Shown in pieces: positions 4,126-32,260 of a DNA stretch of 64,000 nucleotides (position 1 is its first letter; each line of letters opens with the position of its first letter). The notes below the pieces were generated by a model that did no database searches, was not told where the DNA came from, and saw only the letters and a list, made by a program, of their open reading frames with translations. Source of the stretch: Schizochytrium sp. TIO01 (lineage: Eukaryota > Sar > Bigyra > Thraustochytrida > Thraustochytriidae); assembly GCA_004764695.1 (NCBI GenBank), contig SMSO01000033.1, positions 15,001 to 79,000 on the forward strand. The letters run 5' to 3'. A program made the translations under genes and the position numbers.

Positions 4126-7100
4126 TTATTTCAATATATAAGGGCCTAGACACCCCAATGTTGCACGAAAGGCAACGTTTGCAGCTTCCAGCAAATCAAG
4201 CTCTACTTTCTGCGCAGCAATATAGTCCTCTTTTGAACTCAGCATACCAGACCTGTTCGCAAGCCGACCTTGGGCAATAAGACTATGCTGCACTGAAAAC
4301 GGCAGAGAAAGTGCATCGTTTACAACATGTATACAACGAAGCTCACAAGATATCTGTATAAGACTTGTCCTTCTTGTCTTTGCAGAACAAATTTGCTCAT
4401 TCAATTCGAGCTCCTCACACATTTCATCCGTGAACTGGTCCATCCTAGAAATCAGTAAAAACCAAATAACATCAACTCCGTTCGTTAGCTAACAATTTCA
4501 CGTCATCAAAAGGCACCCACAGTACTGCCGGTACAGTTTCATTTAATCTTTGATGTTATCATGCTCTCTGTTAGATCCACACTCAACCAAACAAACAATT
4601 CCACAACAAACTTGCAATGGCGCGAAGAAAAACATCGGCAAAACAGCACACTAGACAACCCACCACGCAACCAACCAACCAAGTCTCATGCACAAACAAG
4701 TCCACGAGCTACTGCTTAGACAACTTACGATAGTGATGTCAGCGACCGGTTCTCTTTCAGCGCCGCACCCACTGCCTTGGCGCCCTCGTCGTTGATATCG
4801 TTGCCATAAAGACTGTTGATTGATTCAATGATGGCAAGCAATACATTACACGTTACATATTACAATAGATGCACGCATGCATGCATGGACGTGAGTGATC
4901 TAGGTTGGCTCTCAGCATTTATCTTTGTTGTGTTGTCATTTTGCTCTTTGTTCGATGGATGTATACTCACTCAAACAGACAACACATCCATCCATCAAAC
5001 AAACAAGCGATTGCATAAACTTGCAAAACAACACCGACCCACCCACCAAACAACAAATCAAGCATCATGTACAAACAAGTCCACGAGCTGCGGTGTTGCG
5101 TAGACAACTTACTATAGCGTTGTCAGCGACCGGTTCTCTTTCAGCGCCGCAGCCACCGCCTTGGCGCCCTCGTCGCCGATATTGTTGTCAGAAAGACTGT
5201 CGATTTGATTGAAGGATGGCAAGCAATACATTACACGTTACATATTACAATAGATGCACGCATGCATGCATGGACGTGAGTGATCTAGGTTAGCTTTCAG
5301 CATTTATCTTTGTTGTGTTGTCATTTTGCTCTTTGTTCGATGGATGTATACTCACTCAAACAGACAACTCATCCATCCATCAAACAAACAAGCGATTGCA
5401 TAAACTTGCAGAACAACACCGACCCACCCACCAAACAACAAACCAAGCATCATGTAGAAACAAGTCCACGAGCTGCGCTGTTGCGTAGACAACTTACTAT
5501 AGTGATGTCAGCGACCGGTTCTCTTTCAGCGCCGCACCCACTGCCTTGGCGCCCTCGTCGCCGATATCGTTGCCCGAAAGACTGTCGATTTGATTGAAGG
5601 ATGGCAAGCAATACATTACACGTTGCATATTACAATAGATGCACACATACATGCGTGGACGTGAGTGATCTAGGTTGACTTTCAGCATTTATCTTTGTTG
5701 TGTTGTCATTTTGCTCTTTGTTCGATGGATGTATACTCACTCAAACAGACAACGTGTCCATCCATCAAACAAACAAGCGATTGCATAAACTTGCAAAGCA
5801 ACACCGACCCACCCACCAAACAACAAACTAAGCATCATGTACAAACAAGTCCACGAGCTGCGGTGTTGCGTAGACAACTTACTCAAGTGATGTCAGCGAC
5901 CGGTTCTCTTTCAGCGCCGCAGCCACCGCCTTGGCGCCCTCGTCGCTGATATTGTTCGCAGGAAGACTGTCGATTTGATTGAAGGATGGCAAGCAATACA
6001 TTACACGTTGCATATTACAATAGATGCACGCATGCATGCATGGACGTGAGTGATCTAGGTTAGCTTTCAGCATTTATCTTTGTTGTGTTGTCATTTTGCT
6101 CTTTGTTCGATGGATGTATACTCACTCAAACAGACAACTCATTCATCCATCAAACAAACAAGCGATTGCATAAACTTGCAAAACAACACCGACCCACCCA
6201 CCAAACAACAAACCAAGCATCATGTACAAACAAGTCCACGAGCTGCGGTGTTGCGTAGACAACTTACTATAGCGTTGTCAGCGACCGGTTCTCTTTCAGC
6301 GCCGCAGCCACTGCCTTGGCGCCCTCTGAGCCGATCTGGTTGCGTTCAAGACTGTCGATTTGATTGAATGATGGCAAGCAATACATTACATGTTACATAT
6401 TACAATAGATGCACGCATGCATGCATGGACGTGAGTGATCTAGGTTGACATTCAGCATTTATCTTTGTTGTGTTGTCATTTTGCTCTTTGTTCGATGGAT
6501 GTATACTCACTCAAACAGACAACCCATCCATCCATCAAACAAACAAGAGATTGCATAAACTTGCAAAACAACACCGACCCACCCACCAAACAACAAACCA
6601 AGCATCATGTACAAACAAGTCCACGAGCTGCGGTGTTGCGTAGACAACTTACTTGAGTGATGTCAGCGACCGGTTCTCTTTCAGCGCCGCAGCCACTGCC
6701 TTGGCGCCCTCGTCGCCGATATTGTTGTCAGAAAGACTGTCGATTTAATTGAAGGATGGCAAGCAATACATTACACGTTGCATATTACAATAGATGCAAT
6801 AGATGCAATAGATGCATGCATGCATGCATGGACGTGAGTGATCTAGGTTGGCTTTCAGGATTTCATCTTTGTTGTGTTGTCATTTTGCTCTTTGTTCGAT
6901 GGATGTAGACTCAGTCAAACAGACAACCCATCCATCCATCAAACAAACAAGCGATTGCATAAACTTGCAAAACAACACCGACCCACCCACCAAACAACAA
7001 ACCAAGCATCATGTACAAACAAGTCCACGAGCTGCGCTGTTGCGTAGACAACTTACGATAGTGATGTCAGCGACCGGTTCTCTTTCAGCGCCGCACCCAC

Positions 7101-8201
7101 TGCCTTGACGCCCTCTGAGCCGATCTTGTTAAAATCAAGACTGTCGATTTGATTGAATGATGGCAAGCAATACATTACACGTTGCATATTACAATAGATG
7201 CAATAGATGCAATAGATGCATGCATGCATGCATGCATGGACGTGAGTGATCTAGGTTGGCTTTCAGGATTTATCTTTGTTGTGTTGTCATTATGCTCTTT
7301 GTTCGATGGATATATACTCACTCAAACAGACAACTCATCCATCCATCAAACAAACAAGAGATTGCATAAACTTGCAAAACAACACCGACCCACCCACCAA
7401 ACAACAAACCAAGCATCATGTACAAACAAGTCCACGAGCTGCGGTGTTGCGTAGACAACTTACTATAGTGATGTGAGCGACCGGTTCTCTTTCAGCGCCG
7501 CAGCCAATGCCTTGGCGCCATCTTCGCCGATATTGGTGTATCTAAGACTGTCGATTTGATTGAATGATGGCAAGCAATACGTTACACATGATACATTACA
7601 TTAGATACACGCATGCATGCATAGACGTGAGTGATCTAGGTTGGCTTTCAGGATTTCACCTTTGTTGTGTTGTCATTTTGCTCTTTGTTCGATGGATGTA
7701 TACTCACTCAAAAAGATAACTTATCCATCCATCAAACAAACAAGCGATTGCATAAACTTGCAAAACAACACCAACCCACCCACCAAACAACAAACCAAGC
7801 ATCATGTACAAACAAGTTCACGAGCTGCGATGTTGCGTAGACAACTTACTTGAGTGATGTCAGCGACCGGTTCTCTTTCAGCGCCGCAGCCACTGCCTTG
7901 GCGCCCTCGTCGCCGATATCGTTGCCTCCAAGACTGTCGATTTGATTGAATGATGGCAAGCAATACATTACACGTTACATATTACAATAGATGCACGCAT
8001 GCATGCATGGACGTGAGTGATCTAGGTTGGCTCTCAGCATTTATCTTTGTTGTGTTGTCATTTTGCTCTTTGTTCGATGGATGCATACTCACTCAAACAG
8101 ATAACTTATCCATTCATCCATCCATATATCCATCAAACAAACAAACAAACCAGCCATTGCACAAACTTGCAAAACAATAACAACAAAAGGAACACCGTGC
8201 A

Positions 8202-8297
<96 letters not shown>

Positions 8298-8374
8298 GTG
8301 TTAACTTACTCTAAAATTGTAGCACCATTCTGAAGCTGTTCAAGGGCAGCGACAACACTTGGGTGGTCCGACAT
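4126..8374 (-). CDS. Gene A: LRR-only protein, 11 exons, 379 aa (reconstructed)
   Basis: The reconstruction on the minus strand is 8374-8310, then nine 84-nt LRR exons (7933-7850, 7547-7464, 7140-7057, 6736-6653, 6351-6268, 5966-5883, 5581-5498, 5196-5113, 4812-4729), then 4444-4126. All introns are phase 2 with donor GTAAG, and the total of 1140 nt is an exact multiple of three. The start exon reads MSDHPSVVAALEQL and is nearly identical to that of gene B, which fixes the ATG. Residues 22-273 are 28-residue LRRs of the ribonuclease-inhibitor/NLR type (L-x-x-N-x-I-G-D/S-E-G-A-K-A). The last exon adds about 106 residues with no domain I recognise (begins SMDQFTDEM). No signal peptide, membrane segment, GTPase, kinase or TIR domain is visible. 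It may be a receptor lacking a signalling domain, a decoy or a partner of gene B. Exon structure is inferred from splice consensus and needs transcripts. Confidence 0.75.
4729..8374 (-). repeat. Tandem exon-intron array of gene A (nine LRR units)
   Basis: Nine direct units have exon-to-exon spacing of 384, 385, 385, 385, 385, 404, 407 and 386 bp. Each holds one 84-nt LRR exon and about 300 bp of intron that is nearly identical between units. Length differences come mostly from short tandem repeats (GATGCAATA, CATC, AAAC) in the introns. Every intron carries a GCATGCATGCATG-type palindromic tract. The intron sequence is shared with the array of gene B, so the two arrays have a common origin and may still exchange sequence. 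Confidence 0.9.
8198..8297. repeat. (CAAG)n microsatellite in intron 1 of gene A
   Basis: About 25 CAAG units with one interruption lie in the first intron, just downstream of the start exon in transcript terms. The equivalent intron of gene B has a shorter, more interrupted CAAG/CAAA tract at about 30868-30935. The tract therefore predates the duplication and has changed length since. Confidence 0.9.
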
Positions 8375-8837: not shown

Positions 8838-8897
8838 GCACATTCGATCATACCACGCGGGTAACACCTCATCTCATTCGCACTGAGAAGTAAAGTC
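8838..8897. repeat. Short dispersed repeat, copies at 21062-21118 and 31481-31545
   Basis: A 57-60 bp block containing CATTCGATCATACCACGCGG and ending near GCACTGAGAAGTAAAGT is almost identical at 21062-21118. A diverged version lies at 31481-31545. Two of the three copies lie upstream of LRR genes A and B. The third adjoins the repeat-rich area at 21.1-22.0 kb. Confidence 0.65.
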
Positions 8898-10090
8898 GCG
8901 TAGGGCCGGGTCAGTAGTATGATAGGGGACTGCATGCGAAGCCCCGGTGTTGAATGTTTTTTTCTCCTTTTATTTTTTACCCTAGCACTACAAGAAAGCA
9001 ACTCCACGGTTAATATCACAATATTATTAAAGATTAATTTCATGAAAATAAACCTGCCCGAAGAGGATCAAAAGCACTATTTTAAAAAAGTCAATTAGGC
9101 ATCTCTACTCTCGGTCAAAGATTCTCCTCTTTTTGAAACTTTCCTTCGCTTCTTTCTGGCACACCTTTGGTCGCAGCCGCCAGTAGCTCCGATCTTTGAA
9201 AGCGCCTCTCTGCTTTCTTCATGTTAAAGCCGTGAAGCAACTCAACACATCTTTGAAATCCGAAAATTGTCGAGTTGCTCTCCATTCTCTCCCAAGCTTT
9301 CCCGATCTCAAGATAATCTATCATAGATCGCATCACAAACCTATTACTATCTGATAGACAAAAACCTACTCCCGACAAGCAATTTATTTCTTGTATGACA
9401 CGGTTACGAGTTTTCGTCGCTTCAAGACCTCACCAAAAACAACGAAAAGACTACAAGTTTTTGGCTCTTCTGTCAAATTGACCCCGATACAAGGACCTCT
9501 TCTTGCCTACTACTCGTTACACAAAACGCCATGACAATCGAAACTCGACCTCCTTTTGCTCAACAAAACCCTACCCAATGCTATATATTATCAAACCAAA
9601 ACAATAGCACCCATACACGATCACAAATGGATAGGGACCTTCCTACCACGTTCTGCATTGTGTGTGACTTGATAGAAGCACAACGCCTCCTCGTCTTTCT
9701 TCAAGAGCAGAATCCATTTTCACACCTTGCGCTCTCAGGAAAAAATTGACTCAACGGACCTTCGAAAACACTAGCAGCGCTTAACCTACGTATACAACCA
9801 ACTATCACACCCAGCAACCTACTACTCTTGCCAAAGCCAGCCATCCTCGCAAACCCGCAACACGAGGCAGCGCGCACGCACGAGACCCACGCCCCCGCGA
9901 CCTCTCGCGCGCCACACCCCTCCACGCGTTCGTTTCTCGTGGGCGAGGCTTGGTCTGCAGAAGCACTTGCGAGGCATCGCGAGGAGTCCGCCCGTTCCTC
10001 CTCCCTTGCTGCGAAGAAGAAGAAGTTGGAGAAGAAGAAGAGAGAGCAGAAGTCTCCGTTCCTCATCAGCAGCGCGAGCAAAGACTCAAA

Positions 10091-10221: not shown

Positions 10222-13200
10222 ATGACCAAAGCAGAGAGTATTGGGGACATCACAAAACATACGACGGAGATTCGGTAAGTGCACCATGCAGAAGGAGGGA
10301 GACAGAAGAAGGAGGCATCGCGTCGTCGATGTGTTGTAGTAGTCAGCTTTGTAGAAGAAGAACAGTTTTGAACTAGTCATATACTTACTCTCACTTGTTC
10401 ACCAACAAATAAACAAACAAACAAACACAGCCTTCGAGGCAAAATTCTTTTTCGAACAGGAATTGGCTCAGAGGTCGCAAAGCCACTCGCAAGAAAACTC
10501 GAGGGATGTAAGAACCTTAAGATATTGGAGTACGTTTGTGGATCATCCACGGAAAGCTATATAATAATAGGTAGTACTGCGGTTCCTCTTTTTCTTTCTT
10601 TCTTTCTTTTGAGTGCTTGGTGTTTGTAGTACTGCTGGTACACTACCTAAGTAGTTTACGTAGTTGGGTACGCAAAGAAAGGCAAAGAAGTCTTTCCTTT
10701 TTTACAAAGAGAAGAAGGAAACCTATATAATTTGATAGGCAGCAGCAGCAGCAGCAGAAGAAGAAGAGCTGATTGCTTTGTATTGTGAGGAAAAACAAAA
10801 CAAACCAGGATCAACTGACTGGACCTGTCTTTCCTGACAACGAATGAACAAAACAAACTTATTCATTTATACTCACAGTCTTAGGGAGAACAAGATTGGC
10901 TCGGAGGGCGCAAAGGCCGTCGCAAAGGCACTCGAGGGATGCAAGAACCTTCAAACTTTAGTGTACGTTTGTGGAATCATCCACGAGGGAAAGCTATCGT
11001 AATAGTCAGGACCAAGCTCTTTCTTTCTTTCTTTTTAGTGCTTGGTGTTTGTAGTACTGCTGGTACACTACCTAAGCAGTTTACGTAGTTGGGTACGCAA
11101 AGAAAGGCAAAGAAGTCTTTTCTTTTTTACAAAGAGAAGAAGGAAATCTATATAATTTGATAGGCAACAGCAACAGCAGAACAAAAGCTGATTGCTTTTT
11201 ATTGTGAGGAAAAACAAAACAAAACAGGATCAACTGACTGGACCTGTCTTTCCTGACAACGAATGAACAAAACAAACTTATTCATTTATACTCACAGTCT
11301 TCCGTGGAACCACATTGGCTCGGAGGGCGCAAAGGCCGTCGCAAAGGCACTCGAGGGATGCAAGAACCTTCAAACTTTACAGTACGTTTGTGGAATCATC
11401 CACGAGGGAAAGCTATCGTAATAGTCAGGACCAAGCTTTTTCTTTCTTTCTTTTTAGTGCTTGGTGTTTGTAGTACTGCTGGTACACTACCTAAAGTAGT
11501 TTACGTAGTTGGGTACGCAAAGAAAGGCAAAGAAGTCTTTTCTTTTTTACACAGAGAAGAAGGAAAACTATAGAAGTTGATAGGCAGCAGCAGCAGCAAA
11601 AGAAGAAGAAGAGCTGATTGCTTTTTATTGTGAAAAAAAAAAAAAAAAAACAGGATCAACTGACTGGACCTGTCTTTCCTGACAACGAATGAACAAAACA
11701 AACTTATTCATTTATACTCACAGTCTTTACAGGAACAACATTGGCTCGGAGGGCGTAAAGGCCGTCGCAAAGGCACTCGAGGGATGCAAGAACCTTCAAA
11801 CTTTAAAGTACGTTTGTGGAATCATCCACGAGGGAAAGCTATCGTAATAGTCAGGACCAAGCTTTTTCTTTCTTTCTTTTTAGTGCTTGGTGTTTGTAGT
11901 ACTGCTGGTACACTACCTAAGTAGTTTACGTAGTTGGGTACGCAAAGAAAGGCAAAGAAGTCTTTTCTTTTTTACACAGAGAAGAAGGAAAACTATATAA
12001 GTTGATAGGCAGCAGCAGCGCAGCAGAAGAAGAGGTGATTGCTTTTTATGGTGAGGAAAAACAAAACAAAACAGGATCAACTGACTGGACCTGTCTTTCC
12101 TGACAACGAATGAACAAAACAAACTTATTCATTTATACTCACAGTCTTGGTTGGAACAAGATTGGCTCGGAGGGCGCAAAGGCCGTCGCAAAGGCACTCG
12201 AGGGATGCAAGAACCTTCAAACTTTAGAGTACGTTTGTGGAATCATCCACGAGGGAAAGCTATCGTAATAGTCAGGACCAAGCTTTTTCTTTCTTTCTTT
12301 CTAGTGCTTGGTGTTTGTAGTACTGCTGGTACACTACCTAAGTAGTTTACGTAGTTGGGTACGCAAAGAAAGGCAAAGAAGTCTTTTCTTTTTTACAAAG
12401 AGAAGAAGGAAATCTATATAATTTGATAGGCAGCAGCAGCAGCAGAAGAAGAAGAAGAGGTGATTGCTTTTTATGGTGAGGAAAAACAAAACAAAACAGG
12501 ATCAACTGACTGGACCTGTCTTTCCTGACAACGAATGAACAAAACAAACTTATTCATTTATACTCACAGTCTTTCTCAAAATAACATTGGCTCAGAGGGC
12601 GCAAAGGCCGTCGCAAAGGCACTCGAGGGATGCAAGAACCTGACTGAACTTGGGTACGTTTGTGGAATCATCCACGAGGGAAAGCTATCGTAATAGTCAG
12701 GACCAAGCTTTTTCTTTCTTTCTTTTTAGTGCTTGGTGTTTGTAGTACTGCTGGTACACTACCTACGTAGTTTACGTAGTTGGGTACGCAAAGAAAGGCA
12801 AAAGAAGTCTTTTCTTTTTTACAAAGAGAAGAAGGAAGTGCAAAAGAAAATGTATATAATTTGATAGGCAGCAGCAGCAGAAGAAGAAGTGATTGCTTTT
12901 TATTGTGAGGAAAAACAACACAAAACAAGATCAACTGACTGGACCTGTCTTTCCTGACAACGAATGAACAAAACAAACTTATTCATTTATACTCACAGTC
13001 TTCAGTTTAACAGGCTTGGCTCGGAGGGCGCAAAGGCCGTCGCAAAGGCACTCGAGGGATGCAAGAACCTGACTCAACTTGGGTACGTTTGTGGAATCAT
13101 CCACGAGGGAAAGCTATCGTAATAGTCAGGACCAAGCTTTTTCTTTCTTTCTTTTTAGTGCTTGGTGTTTATAGTACTGCTGGTACACTATGTACGTAGT

Positions 13201-16200
13201 TTACGTAGTTGGGTACGCAAAGAAAGGCAAAGAAGTCTTTTCTTTTTTACAAAGAGAAGAAGGAAATCTATATAATTTGATAGGCAGCAGCAGAAGAAGA
13301 AGAAGAAGAAGAACTGATTGCTTTTTATTGTTAGGAAAAACAAAACAAAACAGGATCAACTGACTGGACCTGTCTTTCCTGACAACGAATGAACAAAACA
13401 AACTTATTCATTTATACTCACAGTCTTGGTAGCAACAGCATTGGCTCGGAGGGCGCAAAGGCCGTCGCAAAGGCACTCGAGGGATGCAAGAACCTAACTC
13501 ATCTGAAGTATGTTTGTGGAATCATCCACGAGGGAAAGCTATCGTAATAGTCAGGACCAAGCTTTTTCTTTCTTTCTTTTTAGTGCTTGGTGTTTGTAGT
13601 ACTGCTGGTACACTACCTACGTAGTTTACGTAGTTGGGTACGCAAAGAAAGGCAAAGAAGTATTTTCTTTTTTAAAAAGAGAAGAAGGAAATCTATATAA
13701 TTTGATACGCAGCAGCAGCAGCAGCAGAAGAAGAAGAAGAGCTGATTGCTTTTTATTATGAGGAAAAACAAAACAAAACAAGACCAACTGACTGGACCTG
13801 TCTTTCCTGACAACGAATGAACAAAACAAACTTATTCATTTATACTCACAGTCTTTACAACAACAACATTGGCTCGGAGGGCGCAAAGGCCGTCACAAAG
13901 GCACTCGAGGGATGCAAGAACCTTCAAACTTTACAGTACGTTTGTGGAATCATCCACGAGGGAAAGCTATCGTAATAGTCAGGACCAAGCTTTTTCTTTC
14001 TTTCTTTTTAGTGCTTGGTGTTTGTAGTACTGCTGGTACACTACCTAAGTAGTTTACGTAGTTGGGTACGCAAAGAAAGGCAAAGAAGTCTTTTCTTTTT
14101 TACAAAGAGAAGAAGGAAATCTATATAATTCGATAGGCAGCAGCAGCAGAAGAAGAAGAGCTGATTGCTTTTTATTGTGAGGTAAAACAAAACAAAACAG
14201 GATCAACTGACTGGGACCTGTCTTTCCTGACAACGAATGAACAAAACAAACTTATTCATTTATACTCACAGTCTTAATAAGAACAATATTGGCTCGGAGG
14301 GCGCAAAGGCCGTCGCAAAGTCTCTGCACAAAGCATGTCTTTCTGTTAGAATCTAGTAAGTTCCGTTCCCTCTGCTGCTATTCCCAGCTTGCGCAGAGCC
14401 TTGCCTTCGCTGGTTCTGTGTCTCCATATGGACTTGTGAGGAGGCCGTCTTTAGTTGCGTGCATCGTTTTTCTAACAAGCGCTTTTTTATTCTCTTTCTT
14501 TCATTCATTGATTTATCAAATGCAGCTATGACAATTTTTATGGAACTCCTGAAGAATTGTTCGAAAGGGTGTGTTCTCCTGGAGAGGACATTGCAGATTT
14601 CTCGTCAGAACTCGATTCCCATGCTTCCATAGAGGCTGCAGAAAGCGAGCCTTCTGCAGAGCCCAAGAACGAGCAAGATCGCGTTGAGGGCGCTGGGCCT
14701 GCTACTTTGGGTGGATCTGGGTAAGTTCATGCGGTCAGTCTTTGTTTGGGATCGTGTAATTATTCATTCCGCGAATTGTGCTATTGAGATAGAGGGGATC
14801 CTAACTTTTGCGTCTGCTTTTGTTGCTGCCTCAACATCATTTTGCTCGTTTGCTTACATCTTCTTGTTCGTCTCAGAGAACGGGCGGATGGAGCGAGCGT
14901 GAGTTTCGCTGATGTGGTGCAGCTTGCCAAGAAAGTCTCGGACTTGCGCGCGGACCGAGGCGGGGTCAGAGGAAATTCCCTGCAGACTGGGATTGCCCTG
15001 CTTGAGGAATTCGTTCGACCTGCGCTCCAGGGCTACTTTGGCCAAGTGAAGTTGCGACAGGTTTCCGCTGACATCAAGAACTCCAAACAGTGTCTTGACG
15101 CGCTACAAGACCAGATTCGTGCAAGCTCTGCCGATGGCTTGCCCAGCCTCATCGAAAATCGGAACACCGAACGGAGGCACCTGCATTCACTTTTGCAGGT
15201 CGTGCACCCATGGGTTCGCGCGAACCTTTGCGAAAGTGATGAGAGTGCAGTGCGAGAATTCAAAGTGAGAGTCAAAAGTTTGGTAAACGATCTAAAGATC
15301 AACCTTGCACCAGTCGATGAAGAAACCAGCACAGATGACTTCAAACACTGTCAAGAACTCGTTGTTCAGGCTATCCAATGCGTGGAAGGGTACAAGAGGA
15401 GTGGAGAAGGCCAACTCAACAACATTGGTGAACGAAGCCAACAAGCTGTAAATCGCGTCATCTCTCGATTGTCTGAGCTAGAACTTGGTGATGGATTATC
15501 GGTTGCTCTGAAAACACCTGAGCAGGCCATGAAGCTAGAACCGGAGTTGTCTGAACTCAATAGTGCTCTTAAGGAAGAGATCGAAGCTCTACAAGGAGAT
15601 ACATTTCGTGCCCAATTGTCCAAAATACTTTGCGTGATAAGTTCAACATTTGCTCGATTTGAAGGATACTCTGAAAGCACAGTGTTGAATGATGCAAGCA
15701 AGTGCACACCAACAGAGCTCTCTAATCTGTATGACTATGCAGTACTGGGTTCGAAAGAACCTTCTGTCTCAGATGTTGAAGCATTATACCAGAAACTCGA
15801 CAAGTCAAGGAAAGCCACAGAAATTTTGAAAAGAGCCAAAGAAGAACTTGAAATAGAGGAATTGGATGTGGAAGAGCGAGCATATTTTAGAAATCGTATC
15901 AAGAAACAAGAGCTCATTCTCTCTCAAGGCAACCCTATCGATCTTAGCAAAGCTTTTCGTCATAAGCTTGCTGAAACTCTGCAACACGCGCAGGAACATT
16001 ATCCAGAGTTGCTGCAAGATAGAGCCTGGCTGGAAAGGCTTCACGTAAGTGCAGAGGGTGTTTTTGAAGTAGCTTGTTCTGATCTTTGGCTGGCAAACGT
16101 CGAGATTTCAGACTTCAAGCCTGTTGGAGATCTCCTAGCTTCCAGAGGAGGTAAGACTGTCCAGAAGGTTCTTGACGGAGATGGCAGAACTCTAGTTCTC

Positions 16201-17565
16201 AAGCAATTTCAGCTTGGGCATCTAAGTCAATCTAAAATATTCTACAGACAAGTTGCCAATCTGGGCAAAGTGGTGTCTCAACACGTGATCCGTATCACTG
16301 GTGCTTTTGTGATCATGACGCATGGAGTACCGCGTGGCTGTATTGCAATGCCTTTCTACGAGCAAGGTGACCTTGCCAAGTGGATTGATAGTCATCCTAG
16401 CGAAGGCAAAGCAGCACGCGACCGACTTGCTGTGGGCCTGCTCATCGGCGTGGCGGATTTGCATACCCACGGCATTGTGCATTGTGACATCAAACCAGAA
16501 AACATTTTCCTCACAAGCAACGGGACACCATTGATCGGCGACTTTGACGGCATCAAGAATGCAGACTACACTGCAACTTACACATCACTCCAGGCAACGC
16601 CACGGTACGTTGCCCCCGAGTTGCAGAATGGGCCTGTAGATAGGTTTGAAACAGCGATGGACATGTACTCTGTGGGCATCAGCTTAAAGGAGCTGTATCC
16701 TACTGAGCGAACCGCTGCAATGCAGACACTTATCGATGCTCTTACAGCAACAGACCCTGGTCAGCGCCCCACCGCTCGCCAAGCACTCCAACATGAAGCT
16801 TTTGGAGCTCCTAAGATCCCTGTCAAGATATGTCTAGTATGCATGGAGGAGCATCTGCTTTCCGAGGGGACGAGCTGCGAGGAAGGAGACTTCCTTTGCA
16901 GAGACTGTATCGAATCTTCAGTAGAAGCGGCGGCACAGCCACTTGCTAACGTAAGCGTGGATGCTGATGGAACGATGGCATGCATGAAACCTGAATGTAA
17001 TGGAAGGATATCAGGTCAAGAAATCACCCGTCTTGCACCAACTGCTTTGAATCACCTATTGTTGATTGCGAAGATGAAGGCAGAAAATGAAGCAGCAGTT
17101 TGGGCGGAGAAGGAGATCCAAAGGCGCATAGCAGAAGTTTTACTTGCAGATGAACAGAATCGCGACGCGCAACGGCATTTACTTTATATTCAAGAGAATA
17201 TCTTGAGCACATGTTGTCCGAACTGTAAGGCATATGTACACGATTTTGCCGGTTGCTGCGCTGTAAAGTGTGGTAATGATACTTGTGGTCATCACTTCTG
17301 CGCTTGGTGTCTTGGCTATAGTTCTCAGGATGCAAATGCTTGTCATGGTCATGTGAGAACCTGCTTGAAAAAGCTTGGGCAAGATCCATTTTTTGCTGAT
17401 TCATTCGAGCAGGTTCGTGAGGCATGGCGGCTGCTACGTGCAGAACGTCTGCGTGAATACTGGAATGCGAATATTAGAGACAGAAATCTTCAGCATGCTC
17501 TCGAACAGCAGCTTGTGCCTCTGCTAACGCCAGACATCGTTGGTCCAGAATTTAAACTGTGTTAA
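10222..17565 (+). CDS. Gene C: LRR-kinase-RING/RBR-like protein, 13 exons, 1263 aa (reconstructed)
   Basis: Exons are 10222-10274, 10431-10529, 10879-10962, 11298-11381, 11724-11807, 12145-12228, 12570-12653, 12999-13082, 13424-13507, 13852-13935, 14272-14355, 14526-14720 and 14877-17565. All introns are phase 2 (GTACGT or GTAAGT donors, CAG acceptors) and the total of 3792 nt divides by three. Residues 51-302 are nine 28-residue LRRs, preceded by one divergent LRR. Residues 303-367 are acidic. About 369-780 is a long, mainly helical linker. A protein kinase spans about 783-1010 with VAIK-type Lys in VLKQF, HCDIKPEN as catalytic loop (Asp about 905), DFD instead of DFG (about 923) and APE. 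A cysteine-rich RING-like segment begins CLVC at about 1020. A second cluster at about 1147-1199 has CCPNC, GCCAVKC and HHFCAWC, matching the RING2 layout of RBR ubiquitin ligases. Role (inferred): LRR sensor coupled to phosphorylation and ubiquitination. An alternative upstream in-frame ATG at 9967 would read through the CT tract. Confidence 0.85.
10431..14355 (+). repeat. Tandem exon-intron array of gene C (ten LRR units)
   Basis: The nine 84-nt exons start 419, 426, 421, 425, 429, 425, 428 and 420 bp apart; a divergent first unit is the 99-nt exon 10431-10529. Introns of about 335-345 bp are nearly identical, with differences mostly in GCA/GAA trinucleotide and A or T runs. Each intron contains AGTGCTTGGTGTTTGTAGTA and ends in TATACTCACAG. 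Intron sequence is unrelated to that of genes A and B, so this amplification was a separate event. Confidence 0.92.
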
Positions 17566-21061: not shown

Positions 21062-21890
21062 ACATTCGATCATACCACGCGGGTAACACCTCATCTCATT
21101 CGCACTGAGAAGTAAAGTATCTCAGGGCCTGTCAGCTGACAATCTCTTCACGCCCACTGATAGCCCCTGCTTATGCTTAATTAATAATAGGCCAGAAATT
21201 CACTTTAGTGTAATCTGTCGGTGGACAGGCCCTAAGTACAAACTCAATTTTGTGAGGAGAAGCCGCTCTCTTAGGGACTGTCAGTTGACATTAGACCACT
21301 AAAACTACGAGAGAGACCTAATTTTAGTTTTGTGAGGCCGCTCTCTTAGGGCCTGTCAGATGACATGTATGTGAAAGCAGAATTTTGAGCCGCTCTCTCA
21401 GAGCCTGTCAGTTGACATGCATTTGAAAGTAGGATTTTGAGCTGCTCTCTTAGGGCCTGTCAGATGTCAGGCCTTAAGTAATAAGATAGATTATTTGCAA
21501 ATAAGCCCCTGAACAAGGTTTAGCCCTGAGAGAGATTTTTTTAAAAAATGCAATTCGGCCCTAAGAGACCCATAAAAGTTATGCAAATAAGCCACTGAGC
21601 AAGGTTTGGCCCTGAGAGAAGAAAAAGTGCTATGCAAGTTGGCCCTGAGAGATCTGGAAAAATTATGCAAAATGCATCTGAGCAAGTTTTGGCCCTACGC
21701 GAAAGTTGTTTCATGTGCAAGCTGGCTCTGAGAGATCTGGAAAAGTTATGCAAATTGCTTCTGAGCAAGGTTTGGCCCTACGCGAAAGTTGTTTCATGTG
21801 CAAGCTGGCTCTGAGAGATCTGGAAAAGTTATGCAAAATGCACCTGAGCAGGTTTTGGCCCTACGCGAAAAAAAATGATGTGCAAGTCGC
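21062..21890. repeat. Repeat-rich block, related to 31481-32260
   Basis: This region contains recurring segments built around TTAGGGCCTGTCAG(A/T)TGACA and GGCCCTGAGAGATCTGGAAAAG. The second recurs every 80-110 bp between about 21500 and 21850. The same two motifs, in the same order, appear at 31540-32260 upstream of gene B. It therefore looks like one composite element or duplicated segment present twice. No coding capacity was recognised. Confidence 0.6.
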
Positions 21891-22365: not shown

Positions 22366-23228
22366 TTCAATCTTGTCAGCGCCTCGTTCGTCTCAAGTGC
22401 CTCTACCAGGGCCACACATCCTTCGTCACCGATCTAATTGCTTTGATGACTGTTCATCCGTGTTCGGCACAAGCATTCGGCAGAAGAGAATATGCAAAAT
22501 TGAAGCAAATCAAGTGTCAGTCAGCTATATTTATCGCTACTGGTATTAACCCCTCTTGCACGTCTGCCAGAGCAAGCTCAGTGGATATAATCTGCTAGTT
22601 CTCCATTTCAAATATGCCGGATGGCATTGCCATAAAGAGCTCAATTTTACTTACCGTAATTCTGCCAATGCCTGGTTTGTTTTCAATGCCTCAGCCAAAG
22701 CCATACAACCTTCCTTGCTAAAGTCGGTATATTTAAGACTGTTAAGCCGCACTCATCAAAACATTAATGCAGTTGCAAAATTGAAACAAATTCAGTGTCA
22801 GTTGCTCCTCATGCTGGTACTCATAAAAATATCTCGCACGCCTACCCAAATGGTCTTGGCGCATATGGTCTGCTACATAGCCAAATGTCATATCACAGAA
22901 AGTTCTATAAACTCACTTTAAACTTGTCAGAGCCTTGTTCGTCGCAAGCCCCTCTGCCAAAGTCACACAACCTTCGGTATTGATCTCGTTGTGACTAAGA
23001 TTATCCATCCAGAGTTGTCGAAATTCCAAAATTGAAAGGAATTAAGAGTCAGTCAACTATATGTTTCTCTGTCATTTGGAAACCATCTTGCATGCCTACC
23101 AAAATTGCATTGGCGCATACGCTCTGCTTCGTGTTCATGTGATATCAGCCAAATGCCATATCACAGAAAGTTCTATAAACTCACTCTAAACTTTTCAGAG
23201 CTTGCACACAGCTTCCTCCCGAGCACAT
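22366..23228 (-). pseudogene. Gene D: decayed LRR gene with the same exon design
   Basis: Minus-strand pieces keep the geometry of genes A-C. A candidate start exon is 23228-23185 (44 nt, MCSGGSCVQALKSL, phase 2, donor GTGAG). LRR exons follow at 23000-22917, 22738-22655 and 22449-22366, each exactly 84 nt. The middle one is intact (donor GTAAG, acceptor CAG) and encodes an LRR with E-G-C-M-A-L-A-E-A-L. The 23000 exon has lost its AG acceptor (TAA instead), and the 22449 exon has an in-frame TAG before its ILE-GLY-ASP-GLU. No downstream signalling exon was recognised. I infer a dead or dying LRR gene. A short repeat (CACAGAAAGTTCTATAAACT) in two of its introns suggests that it too was built by unit duplication. 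Confidence 0.65.
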
Positions 23229-24392: not shown

Positions 24393-27300
24393 TCATGATT
24401 TTTCAATTTCACTAAGAACCTGACGAACCATATTGTGGAGCTCCTTAACCTCACTTGGAGATCCACCACTCGTCATGTCAACATAAAGAGGACTGATTCC
24501 CCACCAACCGCCAAAAAAGCCTATCCACTCGCCTGGGTCAGTCATAGCCTGCTCAAGTACAACCGGAATCATTCGAACTGGAGACTTTCTCTTTACCAGG
24601 TACTCAAACTCGTAACGGCAGTAATCTGTTATTGTGCGGTCAGAGTTTACCTTCTCCATGTATTCCCGTGTAACAAAGACAACGCCCACTTTGGAATCAT
24701 CGATACCCTGAGTCATTATACGAGTAATCTCGCCATGTTGCATTTCATCTCGATCGAGCCAACATGATATACCATGATTTTTCTGCAAGTTATCACTTAC
24801 ACGGCAAACAAGGTTATGCACTGTCTTATCTTTGCCCCAAGCGTGTGACAAGAAGACGTCATACTTCTCTCGTTGTGCTGTTATCTTCGATTCTATCTCT
24901 TCAGCCTCATCTTTGGTGGCGAAAAACAACCGAAAGGATGATAGCCTCAATATTTTCTTGCGCTCAACAGACGGAACCTTACCGCGTCGTGCGTTTGCCA
25001 AAACACTAATAGAGGCACAACTTTGATCATTTGTGGTACCATCACAGCTCAAAAACAACCTTGGATTCAATTTCTGTTTCATGAAAGCTTCATCTATCGA
25101 TTGCAGTTGAGTATGCAGTAGTTGTACAATGTTTGTTATTGGCCTCTGTAAATCGCTGCTTTCGTCTTCTTCATCATTTTCTAAATACATGATAATACGA
25201 CGTCCAGTATCATCCGGAACCAGGAGGACAGAAATGCCATCAAATATGATGCTTGCCGCATTTGCGTGCACCTGTAGAACCTCAACGAGCCCTGCAGGGA
25301 ATTTTGACACCATACTCGCAATAAAGCGTTGAAACACTCCTTTGGGGAAAAAGTCAAACTCGATATAAACTAAAGCGGCGCCTTCAAATTGCGATAAGAG
25401 ATCATTGAGCTCATCCTCAGAGATAGGTTTTAACAAACTGGGAATTAGCAAAGCTTCCTCTCCGCCCAAGTCTCCTATCCATGGGCTTCTGCTCGCGAGA
25501 AGCATCTCTGTCATGAGTTCAGAAAAGTACTTCACAAAAAAAGGTTGACCCCATAACATTGACAGAAATAATTGACTTGCAACACCGCGTTTCTTCCAAG
25601 TCTCTAAGTCAGCATACCAATTTGTTGGTATCTCAACCTCTGTAACTGCTTCTTTCATTTTTTTCACATGCACCTTCATATGCATTGGATCACAAATTAC
25701 TCGTGACAAGTTGTCCAGCAGCCATTGAGGTTGCAGGATCACATAGTTTGCAAGAACAGGCGTAGAGGTGAGATGCACAATTACGCCCAGCTCGTGCATG
25801 AACTTCAACATCTCCGTAGCGTCATCTTTTGAAATCCCACAGGAACTTGTTGCAAGCTCATACACAGTATCAAGCTCCATGTAGTCTCTCTTGAGCATAA
25901 ACATACGATCCAAGCAGAGAGACCATCGCAATGGTACCTCCTTCTTTACATATTTTTCCTTGGCAGCTGTAGTCATGAGAATCTCACGAAGAAGCTCACA
26001 ACGAAATGGGTCCCTTCGTTCGGTGTTGTCCAGAGGGTAAAAATCCAGATTCTCTGTTTTGTTTCTCTCATGATGGAAGCCTTTGGCCTGAGCTAGAAGC
26101 ACTCCCAACTCAGTGTCAACGAGATTTAGATCTTCCTTAGTATCCTGCAGAGCGTCGAGATATGTACCCACAAGAATAACCTTGGCTCCATTCGCATGTA
26201 AGCGTATCGAGTCTAGCCAGAATCGAATCGTGTTTAGTGCCGTCTCGCTGTCCTCCATTAACGCATAGTCAGAACAGTCCTGGAATTTATCTTTTCCAAT
26301 CACTTCTCGCATATCGAAAACGACCACATACATCCCGTAATTAGTTAGGAAAAGGTGATGCAAAGCGTAGAAAACCTCCTGTCCACCGTAATCCCAAATG
26401 GAGAAACTGACATCTTCCTCTACTTTCGTACGTCCAGCCTCTTCAAATTGGAATTTCACATCAGCCCTAAAAACTCTTGCCACCTCCTCCGTCTCGACCT
26501 TGAGCTCAGGTTTCAAGGTTTTATCCATCCGAGGTCCAGAAAGCCTGGCTAGTGATTTGCGAATACTTTGGTGAAGAAGACTCATTCGATCTTTACGGAT
26601 CTGGGCTTTTACAAGAGCATCGTTGAGATCAGCAGAAAGAATGCCCACTGGGTCCTCTTTCCAGTCCTTCGTGCGAATCACCTTGAGGTCAACACCAATA
26701 GTTGAGTCATGCTCCGCTACGAATGATTGACCGAGTAGAGTGCGAATAGTTGATGTTTTACCAGCGCCTCCCTTTCCAACTACCATCAACTTCGCTCGGC
26801 CCCATCGTACCTTTTCATCTTTTGAGAAAGCATTTAATGCAGACCTTGTGAACTCGTCAACTATTTCCTTGGCCAGCTTTAAGCGGTCACCAATATGATC
26901 TCTCACGTCTTGAGGGATATTAGAACCAAGACTGCCATGATAAACAACTCTGAATTGTTAGTTTGAATCATTTCAAAGCTTCATTTCAAATAACTCAAGC
27001 ATTCGATTAAATCTCTTTACTTTGTACAAACTCACAATATTTTCTGAAGAACATGATTTTCATCCAGCGCCGCAGCAACTGCCTTGGCGCCCTCGTCGCC
27101 GATTCTATTGCCTCCAAGACTGTCGATTTGATTGAATGATGGCAAGCAATACATTACACGTTACATATTACAATAGATGCACGCATGCATGCATGGACGT
27201 GAGTGATCTAGGTTGGCTTTCAGCATTTGTCTTTGTTGTGTTGTCATTTTGCTCTTTCTTCGATGGATGTATACTCACTCAAACAGACAACTCATCCATC

Positions 27301-30300
27301 CATCAAACAAACAAACAAACAAACAGCGATTGCATAAACTTGCAAAACAACACCGACCCACCCACCAAACAACAAACCAACCATCATGTACAAACAAGTC
27401 CACGAGCTGCGCTGTTGCGTAGACAACTTACTTGAGTGATGTCAGCGACCGGTTCTTTTTCAGCGCCGCAGCCACTGCCTTGGCGCCCTCGTCGCCGATA
27501 CCGTTGCGTTGAAGACTGTCGATTTGATTGAATGATGGCAAGCAATACATTACACGTTACATATTACAATAGATGCACGCATGCATGCATGGACGTGAGT
27601 GATCTAGGTTGGCTTTCAGCATTTATCTTTGTTGTGTTGTCATTTTGCTCTTTGTTCGATGGATGTATACTCACTCAAACAGACAACTCATCCATCCATC
27701 CATCAAACAAACAAGCGATTGCATAAACTTGCAAAACAACACCGACCCACCCACCAAACAACAAACCAACCATCATGTACAAACAAGTCCACGAGCTGCG
27801 CTGTTGCGTAGACAACTTACACGAGTGATGTCAGCGACCGGTTCTCTTTCAGCGCCGCAGCCACTGCCTTGGCGCCCTCGTCGCCGATATCGTTGCCCCA
27901 AAGACTGTCGATTTGATTGAATGATGGCAAGCAATACATTACACGTTACATATTACAATAGATGCACGCATGCATGCATGGACATGAGTGATCTAGGTTG
28001 GCTTTCAGCATTTATCTTTGTTGTGTTGTCATTTTGCTCTTTGTTCGATGGATGTATACTCACTCAAACAGACAACTCATCCATCCATCAAACAAACAAA
28101 CAAACAAGCGATTGCATAAACTTGCCAAAACAACACCGACCCACCCACCAAACAACAAACCAAGCATCATGTACAAACAAGTCCACGAGCTGCGGTGTTG
28201 CGTAGACAACTTACGATAGTGATGTCAGCGACCGGTTCTCTTTCAGCGCCGCAGCCACTGCCTTGACGCCCTCTGAGCCGATCTTGTTGCTTTCAAGACT
28301 GTCGATTTGATTGAACGATGGCAAGCAATACATTACACGTTACATATTACAATAGATGCACGCATGCATGCATGGACGTGAGTGATCTAGGTTGGCTTTC
28401 AGCATTAATCTTTGTTGTGTTGTCATTTTGTTCTTTGTTCGATGAATGTATACACACTCAAACAGACAACGCAACCATCCATCCATCTATCAAACAAGCG
28501 ATTGCATAAACTTGCAAAACAACACCGACCCACCCACCAAACAACAAACCAACCATCATGTACAAACAAGTCCACGAGCTGCGCTGTTGCGTAGACAACT
28601 TACACGAGTGATGTCAGCGACCGGTTCTCTTTCAGCGCCGCAGCCACTGCCTTGGCGCCCTCTGAGCCGAATTTGTTGCCTCCAAGACTGTCGATTTGAT
28701 TGAATGATGGCAAGCAATACATTACACGTTACATATTCCAATAGATGCACGCATGCATGCATGGACGTGAGTGATCTAGGTTGGCTTTCAGCATTTATCT
28801 TTGTTGTGTTGTCATTTTGCTCTTTGTTCGATGGATGTATACTCACTCCAACAGACAACTCATCCATCCATCAAACAAACAAGCGATTGCATAAACTTGC
28901 AAAACAACACCGACCCACCCACCAAACAACAAACCAAGCATCATGTACAAACAAGTCCACGAGCTGCGGTGTTGCGTAGACAACTTACTTGAGTGATGTC
29001 AGCGACCGGTTCTCTTTCAGCGCCGCAGCCACTGCCTTGGCGCCCTCTGAGCCGATTCTGTTGCCTCCAAGACTGTCGATTTGATTGAATGATGGCAAGC
29101 AATACATTACACGTTACATATTACAATAGATGCACGCATGCATGCATGGACGTGAGTGATCTAGGTTGGCTTTCAGCATTTATCTTTGTTGTGTTGTCAT
29201 TTTGCTCTTTGTTCGATGGATGTATACTCACTCCAACAGACAACTCATCCATCCATCAAACAAACAAGCGATTGCATAAACTTGCAATAGAACACCAACC
29301 CACCCACCAAACAACAAACCAAGCATCATGTACAAACAAGTTCACGAGCTGCGGTGTTGCGTAGACAACTTACACAAGTGATGTCAGCGACCGGTTCTCT
29401 TTCAGCGCCGCAGCCACTGCCTTGGCGCCCTCGTCGCCGATCTGGTTGCCTCTAAGACTGTCGATTTGATTGAATGATGGCAAGCAATACATTACACGTT
29501 ACATATTACAATAGATGCACGCATGCATGCATGGACGTGAGTGATCTAGGTTGGCTTTCAGCATTTATCTTTGTTGTGTTGTCATTTTGCTCTTTGTTCG
29601 ATGGATGTATACTCACTCAAACAGACAACCCACCCATCCATCAAACAAACAAGCGATTGCATAAACTTGCAAAACAACACCGACCCACCCACCAAACAAC
29701 AAACCAACCATCATGTACAAACAAGTCCACGAGCTGCGGTGTTGCGTAGACAACTTACTCAAGTGATGTCAGCGACCGGTTCTCTTTCAGCGCCGCACCC
29801 ACTGCCTTGGCGCCCTCTGAGCCGATCTGGTTCAAGGACAGACTGTCGATTTGATTGAATGATGGCAAGCAATACATTACACGTTACATATTACAATAGA
29901 TGCACGCATGCATGCATGGACGTGAGTGATCTAGGTTGGCTTTCAGCATTTGTCTTTGTTGTGTTGTCATTTTGCTCTTTGTTCGATGGATGTATACTCA
30001 CTCAAACAGACAACTCATCCATCCATCCATCAAACAAACAAGCGATTGCATAAACTTGCAAAACAACACCGACCCACCCACCAAACAACAAACCAACCAT
30101 CATGTACAAACAAGTCCACGAGCTGCGCTGTTGCGTAGACAACTTACACGAGTGATGTCAGCGACCGGTTCTCTTTCAGCGCCGCAGCCACTGCCTTGGC
30201 GCCCTCTGAGCCGATCTGGTTCAAGGACAGACTGTCGATTTGATTGAATGATGGCAAGCAATACATTACACGTTACATATTACAATAGATGCACGCATGC

Positions 30301-31030
30301 ATGCATGGACGTGAGTGATCTAGGTTGGCTTTCAGCATTTATCTTTGTTGTGTTGTCATTTTGCTCTTTGTTCAATGGATGTATACTCACTCAAACAGAC
30401 AACTCATCCATCCATCCATCAAACAAACAAGCGATTGCATAAACTTGCAAAACAACACCGACCCACCCACCAAACAACAAACCAACCATCATGTACAAAC
30501 AAGTCCACGAGCTGCGCTGTTGCGTAGACAACTTACACGAGTGATGTCAGCGCCCGGTTCTCTTTCAGCGCCGCAGCCACTGCCTTGGCGCCCTCTGAGC
30601 CGATCTGGTTCAAGGTCAGACTGTCGATTTGATTGAATGATGGCAAGCAATACATTACACGTTACATATTACAATAGATGCACGCATGCATGCATGGACG
30701 TGAGTGATCTAGGTTGGCTTTCAGCATTTATCTTTGTTGTGTTGTCATTTTGCTCTTTGTTCGATGGATGTATACTCACTCAAACAGACAACTCATCCAT
30801 CAAACAAACAAACAAGCGATTGCATAAACTTGCAAAACAATAACAACAAAAGCAACACCGTACAAATAAAGCAAGCAAGCAAGCAAACAAGCAAACAAGC
30901 AAACAAGCAAGCAAGCAAACAAGCAAGCAAGCGACCGAGCGACCAAGAGTACCTTGTTAACTTACTTCAATGTCGTAGCGCCATTCCGAAGCTGTTCAAG
31001 GGCATAGACAACACCTGGGTGGTCTGACAT
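24393..31030 (-). CDS. Gene B: LRR-Roc-COR-TIR protein, 12 exons, 1147 aa (reconstructed)
   Basis: Minus-strand exons are 31030-30966, then ten 84-nt LRR exons ending at 30537, 30148, 29759, 29374, 28989, 28604, 28215, 27821, 27432 and 27036, then 26931-24393. All introns are phase 2 and the sum of 3444 nt divides by three. Residues 22-301 are ten 28-residue LRRs. The last exon carries a Roc GTPase domain: P-loop GKGGAGKT at about 354-361, DYGGQE at about 482-487, and VGTYLD at about 556-561 in the G4 position. A COR-like region follows to about 960. A TIR domain begins KYDVFLSHAWG at about 991; a Glu in CRYEFEYL at about 1076 fits the catalytic Glu of TIR NADases. Family knowledge: Roco proteins are GTP-regulated dimers, and TIR domains signal by NAD+ cleavage or assembly. 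Inferred role: cytosolic LRR sensor with GTPase switch and TIR output. The start is fixed by identity with gene A exon 1. Confidence 0.88.
27036..30966 (-). repeat. Tandem exon-intron array of gene B (ten LRR units)
   Basis: Unit spacing is 396, 389, 394, 389, 385, 385, 385, 389 and 389 bp. Exon and intron sequences are nearly identical between units and to those of gene A. The 3'-most LRR exon (27119-27036) is more diverged in its second half and is followed by a short unique 104-bp intron with a GTGAGT donor. This marks the edge of the amplified block next to the fixed Roc-COR-TIR exon. Confidence 0.92.
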
Positions 31031-31480: not shown

Positions 31481-32260
31481 CATTCGACCATACCACGCAA
31501 ATAACGCAAATAACAACACCTCATTTGCACTGAGTGTCAACTGATCTCCCTCATACCCACTGCTAGCCCCTGCTTAGGCTTTATTGACGTAATATACAGC
31601 TAGGTGCTAAACTAACCTAACTTAACTTAACTTGACCTAAATCTTCTGTCCAACACTCTACTGGATTCAACATGATACATTCATCTTGCCTGTATCCAAA
31701 AAGATCCGAAATTTCAATAACATAAATATCATCATTGTTAAACTACCTCTGCGCGCTAAGCTAATCTGCAATAGGCTTAATTAATAATTGGCCAGAAGTT
31801 CACTTTTGTTCGGTCTGACGGTGGGTAAGCCGTAAGTACAAGTTCAATTTTGTGAGGAGAAATTACTCTTCTAAGGCTTGTCAGCTGACATTGGAGAACT
31901 TAAATCACAAGAGAGACCTAATTTTAGTCTTACAAGGTCGCTCTCTTAGGGCCTGTCGGTTGACACGCATGTGGAAGTAGGATTTTGAGTTACTTTCTCA
32001 GGGTCTGTCAAATGGCAGGCCTTCAGTAATAAGGCAGATGCTATGCAAAAGCACCTGAGCAAGGTTTGGCCCTAAGATAAGAAAAACGTTGGGCAGATTG
32101 GCCCTGAGAGGTCTAGAAAGGTTATGTAAAAAAGCTCCTGAATAAGGATTGGCTCTAAGAGAAGAAACAATTTATGCAAGTTGGCCATAAGAGATCTAGA
32201 AAAGTCATGTAGTATGCTTCTCAGCAAGCTTTGGCCTGAGGGGACTAAGAAATGTTACAG
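31481..32260. repeat. Composite repeat block, second copy of 21062-21890 with R1 copy 3 inside
   Basis: The block starts with the diverged 60-bp repeat. It then contains a direct copy of R1 at about 31580-31770 (GTAATATACAGCTAGGTGCTAA and CCTAA-like units). It continues with the GGCCTGTC and GGCCCTGAGAGGTCTAGAAAGG segments. At 21.06 kb the R1 part is absent between the same flanks, so R1 may have inserted here, or it was lost there. Confidence 0.5.

Follow-up and report, generated by a model that had tools for sequence, protein, structure and literature searches.

The window analysed here is the whole of a 64,000-nucleotide stretch of DNA from Schizochytrium sp. TIO01 (contig SMSO01000033.1, positions 15,001 to 79,000); it starts 15 kb from a contig end, in a genome of 64 Mb and 37 contigs. 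It contains three genes, A, B and C, whose products look like receptor-type proteins, with a solenoid of leucine-rich repeats (LRRs) joined to differing C-terminal modules. The repeats of all three are encoded by 84-nt exons interrupted at the same codon, one LRR per phase-2 exon. Within these arrays a few codons that probably face the ligand are extremely diverse, while the introns beside them are nearly identical. This report describes that pattern, first in gene C and then across the genome, and considers how it may have arisen.

Repeat exons of genes A, B and C

The features of the three genes are collected in Table 1. The spliced coding sequence of gene C has 1263 codons and no internal stop (0), and its protein runs from a diverged LRR through nine one-exon LRRs and a linker to a region of no known family, a protein kinase and a Cys-rich end. 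The kinase is recognised by Pfam (Pkinase, E 1.8e-26), and HCD and DFD motifs can be read by eye. The Cys-rich end appears RING/IBR-like by eye; neither it nor the region preceding the kinase has a Pfam match at E up to 1. Gene A consists of LRRs and a short tail only (LRR_6, E 7.6e-69 in a Pfam scan). Gene B carries Roc (8.2e-18), COR-A (2e-11) and TIR_2 (6.8e-14). NB-ARC and NACHT domains are absent from all three genes in a Pfam scan at E up to 0.001.

Table 1. Positions of the genes and exons discussed, in window coordinates
Feature	Position	Strand	Remarks
Gene C, exon 1 (53 nt)	10222..10274	+	Start codon; GT donor at 10275
Gene C, exon 2	10431..10529	+	N-terminal segment with the more diverged first LRR; 77-81% DNA identity with the LRR exons over 81 nt
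Gene C, array	10879..14355	+	Nine 84-nt phase-2 LRR exons; near-identical introns of 335-345 bp
Gene C, LRR exons 1-5	10879-10962, 11298-11381, 11724-11807, 12145-12228, 12570-12653	+	
Gene C, LRR exons 6-9	12999-13082, 13424-13507, 13852-13935, 14272-14355	+	
Gene C, linker exon	14526..14720	+	GT-AG boundaries, open frame; aligned in paralogues
Gene C, C-terminal exon	14877..17565	+	Region of no known family, protein kinase, Cys-rich end (RING/IBR-like by eye)
Gene A	4126..8374	-	Exon 1 8310-8374; nine 84-nt LRR exons 4729-7933; ~95-aa tail exon with stop 4126-4444
Gene B	24393..31030	-	Exon 1 30966-31030; ten 84-nt LRR exons 27036-30620; ROC-COR-TIR exon 24393-26931
Lone diverged 84-nt LRR-type exon (LKYTDFSKEGCMALAEALKTNQALAEL)	22655..22738 (= C32:37655-37738)	-	Script scan

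Among proteins of solved structure, sequence matches are to LRRs of the 28-residue type: axonemal LRR proteins, ribonuclease inhibitors, RanGAP, NLRC4, NLRPs and NLRX1. In such repeats, the x residues of LxLxxN point to the concave sheet. From the similarity to ribonuclease inhibitor (RI)-like LRRs and general knowledge of the fold, residues x5, x7, x8 and x10 of L-x-L-x-x-N-x-I are expected to face the ligand; the parts consulted of PMC11378527 give the same concave-face position for the x residues of brown-algal ROCO proteins. The codons that vary most in gene C are precisely these, namely exon nucleotides 5-10 and 14-16 (x7, x8 and x10) and the last two nucleotides, which open the split codon x5. 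The symmetric exons would also allow alternative splicing of LRRs.

An earlier note on this DNA, made from the sequence alone, had described the nine gene C exons correctly, and its list of residues (RE-N-K, PW-N-H, YR-N-N, GW-N-K, SQ-N-N, QF-N-R, GS-N-S, YN-N-N and NK-N-N) is exact. The split-codon residues that it read (V, H, N, D, G, G, N, H and Y) are also right, but it placed each before its exon, whereas each follows it; exon 1 itself is preceded by D (GA|T), and C rather than T completes the final Y. The rest of the exon has a mean pairwise diversity (pi) of 0.085, and in exons 5-7 codons 24-26 vary too. The introns (335-349 bp when that preceding exon 1 is counted) are about 96% identical in pairwise comparison, which falls short of the near invariance ascribed to them.

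Putative contact codons and introns across the repeat pool

Diversity was compared between the 11 nucleotides of x5, x7, x8 and x10, the remaining exon and the introns. For the gene C array pi is 0.633, 0.085 and 0.042, respectively, the last from 330 ungapped intron sites (39 further columns contain gaps). The codons are thus some 15-fold more diverse than the introns; the earlier note had named the opposite outcome, introns at least as diverse as the codons, as one that would refute its reading. Genes A (0.528, 0.072, 0.045) and B (0.616, 0.050, 0.020) behave alike, and in none of the three did 11 sites drawn at random 100,000 times reach the x-codon value (0 times).

The units belong to a large pool. 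Searches of the genome at the DNA level gave 174 matches to a C-type unit, as found in gene C, and 396 to a B-type unit, as found in genes A and B. The arrays sampled are those at the best 30 loci of each search, together with the window; more diverged arrays (65-83% identity, for example C13, C6 and C33) lie outside this sample. From 201 extracted units, 13 were dropped (12 units in duplicate segments and one diverged unit, the lone exon of the window), leaving 188; exon statistics refer to 179 of these (130 B, 49 C), after exclusion of nine whose 3' half diverges. Of the 17 labels given to B arrays, one covers both gene A and gene B of the window. Introns of at least 420 bp, or with no next unit detected, were excluded, so that 111 B-type and 43 C-type introns were used.

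Units of one type occur across many genes and contigs. The C-terminus of gene C has 51 matches in the genome, 24 of them covering nearly the full query, and 23 of these 24 lack internal stops. The ROC-COR-TIR part has 39 matches, five at 70% identity or more, one of which contains an internal stop. A gene A-type tail follows six of the nine B-type arrays whose 3' flank was examined; none was found after the other three, in flanks only partly examined. Gene A-type tails and the C-terminus of gene B, which are unrelated, thus draw on a single LRR pool, so that the pool supplies no fewer than two kinds of C-terminal module. Array loci are concentrated near contig ends: on contigs longer than 1 Mb, and among the matches listed, 14 of 21 B-type and 9 of 19 C-type loci lie within 100 kb of an end, where 4.1% would be expected, although three of the nine C-type loci are on near-identical contig ends and may be one.

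These three, the C24 start and the C32 and C35 ends, look like a single contig end assembled repeatedly. The C35 end is identical to that of C32 apart from homopolymer lengths and one LRR unit of about 430 bp, whose absence from C35 may reflect unit loss or an assembly error and, given the repeated assembly, was set aside as evidence. The lower identity and stops of the C24 copy proved to be a contig-edge effect; C24 equals C32 wherever both were compared. Two LRR exons in this pool (C32:2894023 and C32:2894911; L014/L028 region) are 99 nt long and carry an in-frame stretch of G and T beside the x codons; the stretch differs in length in the C35 copy, possibly through sequencing error.

In the pooled sample, pi at the x codons, elsewhere in the exon and in the introns is 0.58, 0.071 and 0.044 for B-type units (n=130), and 0.53, 0.093 and 0.040 for C-type units (n=49). 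Backbone third positions resemble introns in both families (0.053 and 0.054). Other raised exon sites are codon 7 (S/D, both types), codon 14 (A/G, B), codons 24-25 (C) and the bases of Leu26 beside the split codon. The Ser/Asp dimorphism at codon 7 uses partly different codons in the two types (TCA/GAC in B, TCG or TCA/GAT in C), hinting at a maintained polymorphism away from the concave face.

The frequency of variants differs as much as their number. B-type introns have 1.12 distinct variants per site, mainly rare, and Watterson's estimator (theta_W, 0.21) is well above pi (0.044); B-type x codons have the maximum of three variants per site, at intermediate frequency (theta_W 0.57, pi 0.58). 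For C-type introns the corresponding values are 0.49 variants, theta_W 0.11 and pi 0.040, and for C-type x codons 2.73 variants, mostly common, theta_W 0.63 and pi 0.54. All four bases occur at 11 of 11 x sites in B and at 73% of the 11 in C. The excess of x codons over introns is about 13-fold in pi for both types, and 2.7-fold (B) and 5.6-fold (C) in distinct variants; the last two are lower bounds, because the x sites are saturated.

Proposed homogenisation and selection, and alternative explanations

Array introns appear younger than the genes that carry them. Seven gene C paralogues (one identical pair left out) differ in their C-termini by a synonymous divergence (dS) of 0.11-0.26, which exceeds the distance between their array introns (means of 0.029-0.053 between genes, minimum 0.006; six of the seven genes). 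The tails of seven gene A-type genes have a mean dS of 0.18 (range 0.05-0.32) at 69% amino acid identity; the array introns of these genes and gene B differ by a mean of 0.044 over all pairs, and gene B, whose C-terminus is unrelated to the tails, is no farther away (0.024-0.044). The tails themselves (window 4126-4444; L079, L081-L085) have a mean dN of 0.19, about equal to mean dS, which may reflect either relaxed or positive selection.

Exchange is also suggested by four-gamete tests (sites of minor frequency at least 0.045; bins restricted to common sites hold few pairs, unevenly spread). At long distance the four-gamete fraction equals the expectation for free recombination, and at short distance it lies below, the crossover falling at roughly 30-60 bp for B and at 60-120 bp or beyond for C. 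Low r2, the squared correlation between intron sites, was discarded as proof of recombination, as mutually exclusive rare alleles have the same effect. The order of units turns over as well: two or more ordered x7x8x10 triplets are common to 2 of 404 array pairs (two near-identical duplicate pairs excluded, some arrays partial and cross-type pairs included). The C31/C33 pair, at dS 0.11, has no more than one ordered triplet in common, which implies that arrays turn over faster than genes. Near-identical duplicates were tried as a clock, and the inverted C30/C5 pair proved too young. Within this one genome and partial sample, the repeats appear to be homogenised both within and between loci.

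The contact codons depart from this in several respects. Units whose introns are only 0.5-1% apart already differ at 6.2 (B) or 5.6 (C) of the 11 x-codon bases, and those with introns 5-8% apart at 6.4 and 5.8, a correlation of about zero. The ratio of non-synonymous to synonymous diversity (pN/pS) at x7, x8 and x10 together is 1.5 in both families, against 0.5 (B) and 0.3 (C) elsewhere; for the single codons it is 1.1 and 1.4 (x7), 2.9 and 1.5 (x8) and 1.3 and 4.1 (x10) in B and C, respectively. Synonymous diversity is raised too: pS is 0.43 and 0.37 at the x codons and 0.066 and 0.063 elsewhere. High pS with a modest pN/pS is more in keeping with long-kept alleles and their linked synonymous changes than with a simple, recent sweep of point mutations. 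The third base of Leu26, synonymous and adjoining the split codon, has a pi of 0.65 in B and is tightly associated with that codon (z 43), while the third base of the Ser codon three nucleotides upstream has 0.03. Such an island of diversity, a few bases wide, indicates hitchhiking over a short span, as expected under frequent conversion. With pi at 0.53-0.58 against 0.04 and pN/pS at 1.5 against 0.3-0.5, a few codons per repeat appear to be under diversifying selection.

We consider it quite probable that exchange of units evens out backbone and introns, and that differences at the contact codons are maintained by diversifying selection. Each LRR occupies one symmetric phase-2 exon between near-identical introns, and one unit type is found in many genes; the introns would supply the homology for in-frame duplication, loss or swap of whole exons. 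Backbone and introns would be homogenised by gene conversion or unequal exchange, among the units of one gene as well as from gene to gene, and balancing-like selection would hold x5, x7, x8 and x10 apart. Each receptor would thereby present a distinct set of residues on its concave side. The x residues may bind variable ligands, such as pathogen or non-self molecules, with the kinase, ROCO or TIR part signalling as in recognition of the NOD-like receptor (NLR) or HNWD type. Theory and an opsin example in PMC3924837, as far as consulted, give a peak of divergence with low values in flanking introns where the selected target is small; this is the pattern expected when selection opposes homogenisation, and it counts in favour of this reading. 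The earlier note had offered a choice between selection opposing homogenisation and targeted diversification. The first is well supported, by young array introns, four-gamete exchange and x alleles at intermediate frequency where intron variants are rare; the second is not needed. The dN/dS check that it proposed, run as pN/pS, gave a value above one at the x codons, yet a modest one.

Several observations weigh on the other side. Sampling by similarity to one query biases intron diversity between arrays low, the three window arrays being exempt. Between five gene C paralogues the non-array introns show average differences of 0.089 and 0.063, and by this yardstick homogenisation is about two-fold, as against four-fold relative to dS. 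Tail dS is below 0.1, near the intron distance, in 4 of 21 gene A-type pairs, and recurrent mutation can also produce four gametes. An intron has its closest counterpart within its own array in 21 of 111 B cases (6.8 expected) and 15 of 43 C cases (5.9 expected), and B-type introns are closer within arrays (0.039) than between them (0.045), a difference matched by 3 of 1000 shuffles; the C-type values, 0.039 and 0.040, were matched by 300 of 1000. Finally, pN/pS at the x codons is only 1.5, and 1.1 and 1.4 at x7 alone, because pS is high too.

In principle, the x codons could instead be hit directly by a targeted mutator, be it a deaminase or an error-prone or reverse-transcription-based system, but this seems unlikely. 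Their saturation where unit introns are nearly identical would follow naturally, as would a pS some six times that of the backbone. Moreover, x8 is often NNC and B-type x10 often NNT, resembling NNY, the pattern expected from adenine mutagenesis in diversity-generating retroelements (DGRs). Adenine-specific, DGR-like mutagenesis was nevertheless rejected on base-specific diversity: adenines in the backbone rank with the least variable bases, at a pi of 0.024 (B) and 0.0095 (C). Of the 130 B units, 124 retain the Asn beside the x codons. A phase-blind mutator should scramble third bases, yet in pyrimidine-ending codons these are nearly constant: 105 C and 2 T at x8 and 71 T and 7 C at x10 in B, and 21 C and 2 T at x8 and 38 C and 0 T at x10 in C. 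Hypermutation of the whole x-codon region is disfavoured at these codons only. The test is partial, because B codons end in A or G at 23 of 130 x8 and 52 of 130 x10 positions, with A and G mixed at x10, and because the third base of x7 is not constant either (for given first two bases, its C/T diversity is 0.32 in B and 0.11 in C). Nor can it count events, since a few alleles shared by descent would also leave synonymous change scarce; in that case few mutations would be needed at all. The 2.7- and 5.6-fold excess in distinct variants, albeit a lower bound, is far below the excess in pi. The inverted C30/C5 duplicate has one difference in its LRR span and none (0) in exons, and is too young to carry much weight.

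A single recent amplification, followed by fast positive selection on the x codons with no continuing exchange, is also quite improbable. Intron variants are mainly rare, as in a star-like expansion, and intron distances within and between arrays are indeed close in both types. The C-termini are older than such a burst, however, introns are common to genes with unrelated C-termini, the four-gamete tests show an effect of distance, and the synonymous bases of Leu26 are far more diverse than introns. As for exchange itself, we give little credence to a directed recombination system, meiotic or somatic, that would use the near-identical introns as homology arms to reshuffle ligand-facing cassettes among receptors whose signalling ends differ, into a combinatorial recognition repertoire for a unicellular protist. 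Conservation of array introns for splicing or recombination signals, in place of homogenisation, is very improbable. In its favour, intron diversity is below the exon dS of the same genes, and the diversity of non-array introns is below dS too; against it, 73% of 301 (B) and 42% of 330 (C) array intron sites have at least one variant, with diversity spread along the intron, backbone third positions at a similar pi, and B- and C-type introns unrelated by eye.

Other features of the window are a 5S rRNA gene (8840-8958, +; Rfam RF00001, 96.5 bits) between the divergent genes A and C, and 83-bp tandem units, alike by eye, on both sides of gene B (21633-21870 and 32047-32211). A 52-bp repeat lies at 21337-21466. 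An open reading frame of 776 aa (52264-54594), with no Pfam match, contains tandem repeats of 111 bp (52846-53489) and 39 bp (54199-54358).

Comparison with known systems

Homogenised repeats with diverse contact codons are typical of recognition repertoires. The closest biological case is that of the HNWD genes of the fungus Podospora anserina (het-d, het-e), and the closest architecture is that of the brown-algal LRR-ROCO genes. In the parts consulted of PMC1805685 and PMC2873952, HNWD repeats are homogenised within and between genes, four codons of the interaction surface of each repeat are under diversifying selection, and one repeat pool serves several genes with some preference for exchange within a locus, much as found here. 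HNWD proteins combine WD40 repeats with NACHT, whereas the present genes join LRR_6 exons to Roc/COR/TIR, Pkinase or a short tail, and introns here serve as an internal neutral control. Polymorphism and instability of repeat number are established in Podospora; here one genome was read. In the parts consulted of PMC4986451, the WD, ANK and TPR repeats of fungal NLRs combine high internal conservation with positive selection, and LRR motifs were not found.

An earlier study of brown-algal LRR-ROCO genes is reportedly that of Zambounis (2012). Literature searches for LRR or ROCO recognition in thraustochytrids or labyrinthulids gave nothing on point among the matches listed, most subscription papers being out of reach. 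For the brown-algal genes, PMC11378527, as far as consulted, describes one LRR per phase-2 exon, a ROC-COR partner (as in gene B), four concave-face sites under positive selection and LRR-only genes as a proposed reservoir. Their exons have 72 nt, in contrast to the 84 nt (28-residue RI-like LRR) found here; here, too, the ROCO gene carries TIR and a kinase family uses the same scheme. Intron homogenisation does not figure in those parts of that paper. Genes A and C fall outside the LRR-ROCO class, because only gene B has ROC-COR.

The nearest named relatives are thraustochytrid. The protein closest to the C-terminus of gene B is P0054 (55% identity), and nine LRR-ROC-COR(-TIR) proteins of Hondaea fermentalgiana (P0055-P0061, P0063 and P0064) are 36-45% identical to it, seven of the nine at 43-45%. 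The five Hondaea proteins scanned also have 28-residue LRRs with varied x positions; unlike those described here, their repeats are less homogeneous by eye.

The mode of diversification is thus already known; what appear to be new are the host, an LRR exon with an intron as control, the kinase and ROCO-TIR modules, and the scale. With several C-terminal modules, unit matches in the hundreds and a neutral-control intron beside nearly every repeat, conversion rate, tract length and selection strength become measurable within one genome, and in a unicellular heterotroph the question of an adaptive-like repertoire becomes testable. The combination of a shared repeat pool with selected contact codons, known in a fungus and partly proposed for brown algae, is hereby extended to a probable labyrinthulid.

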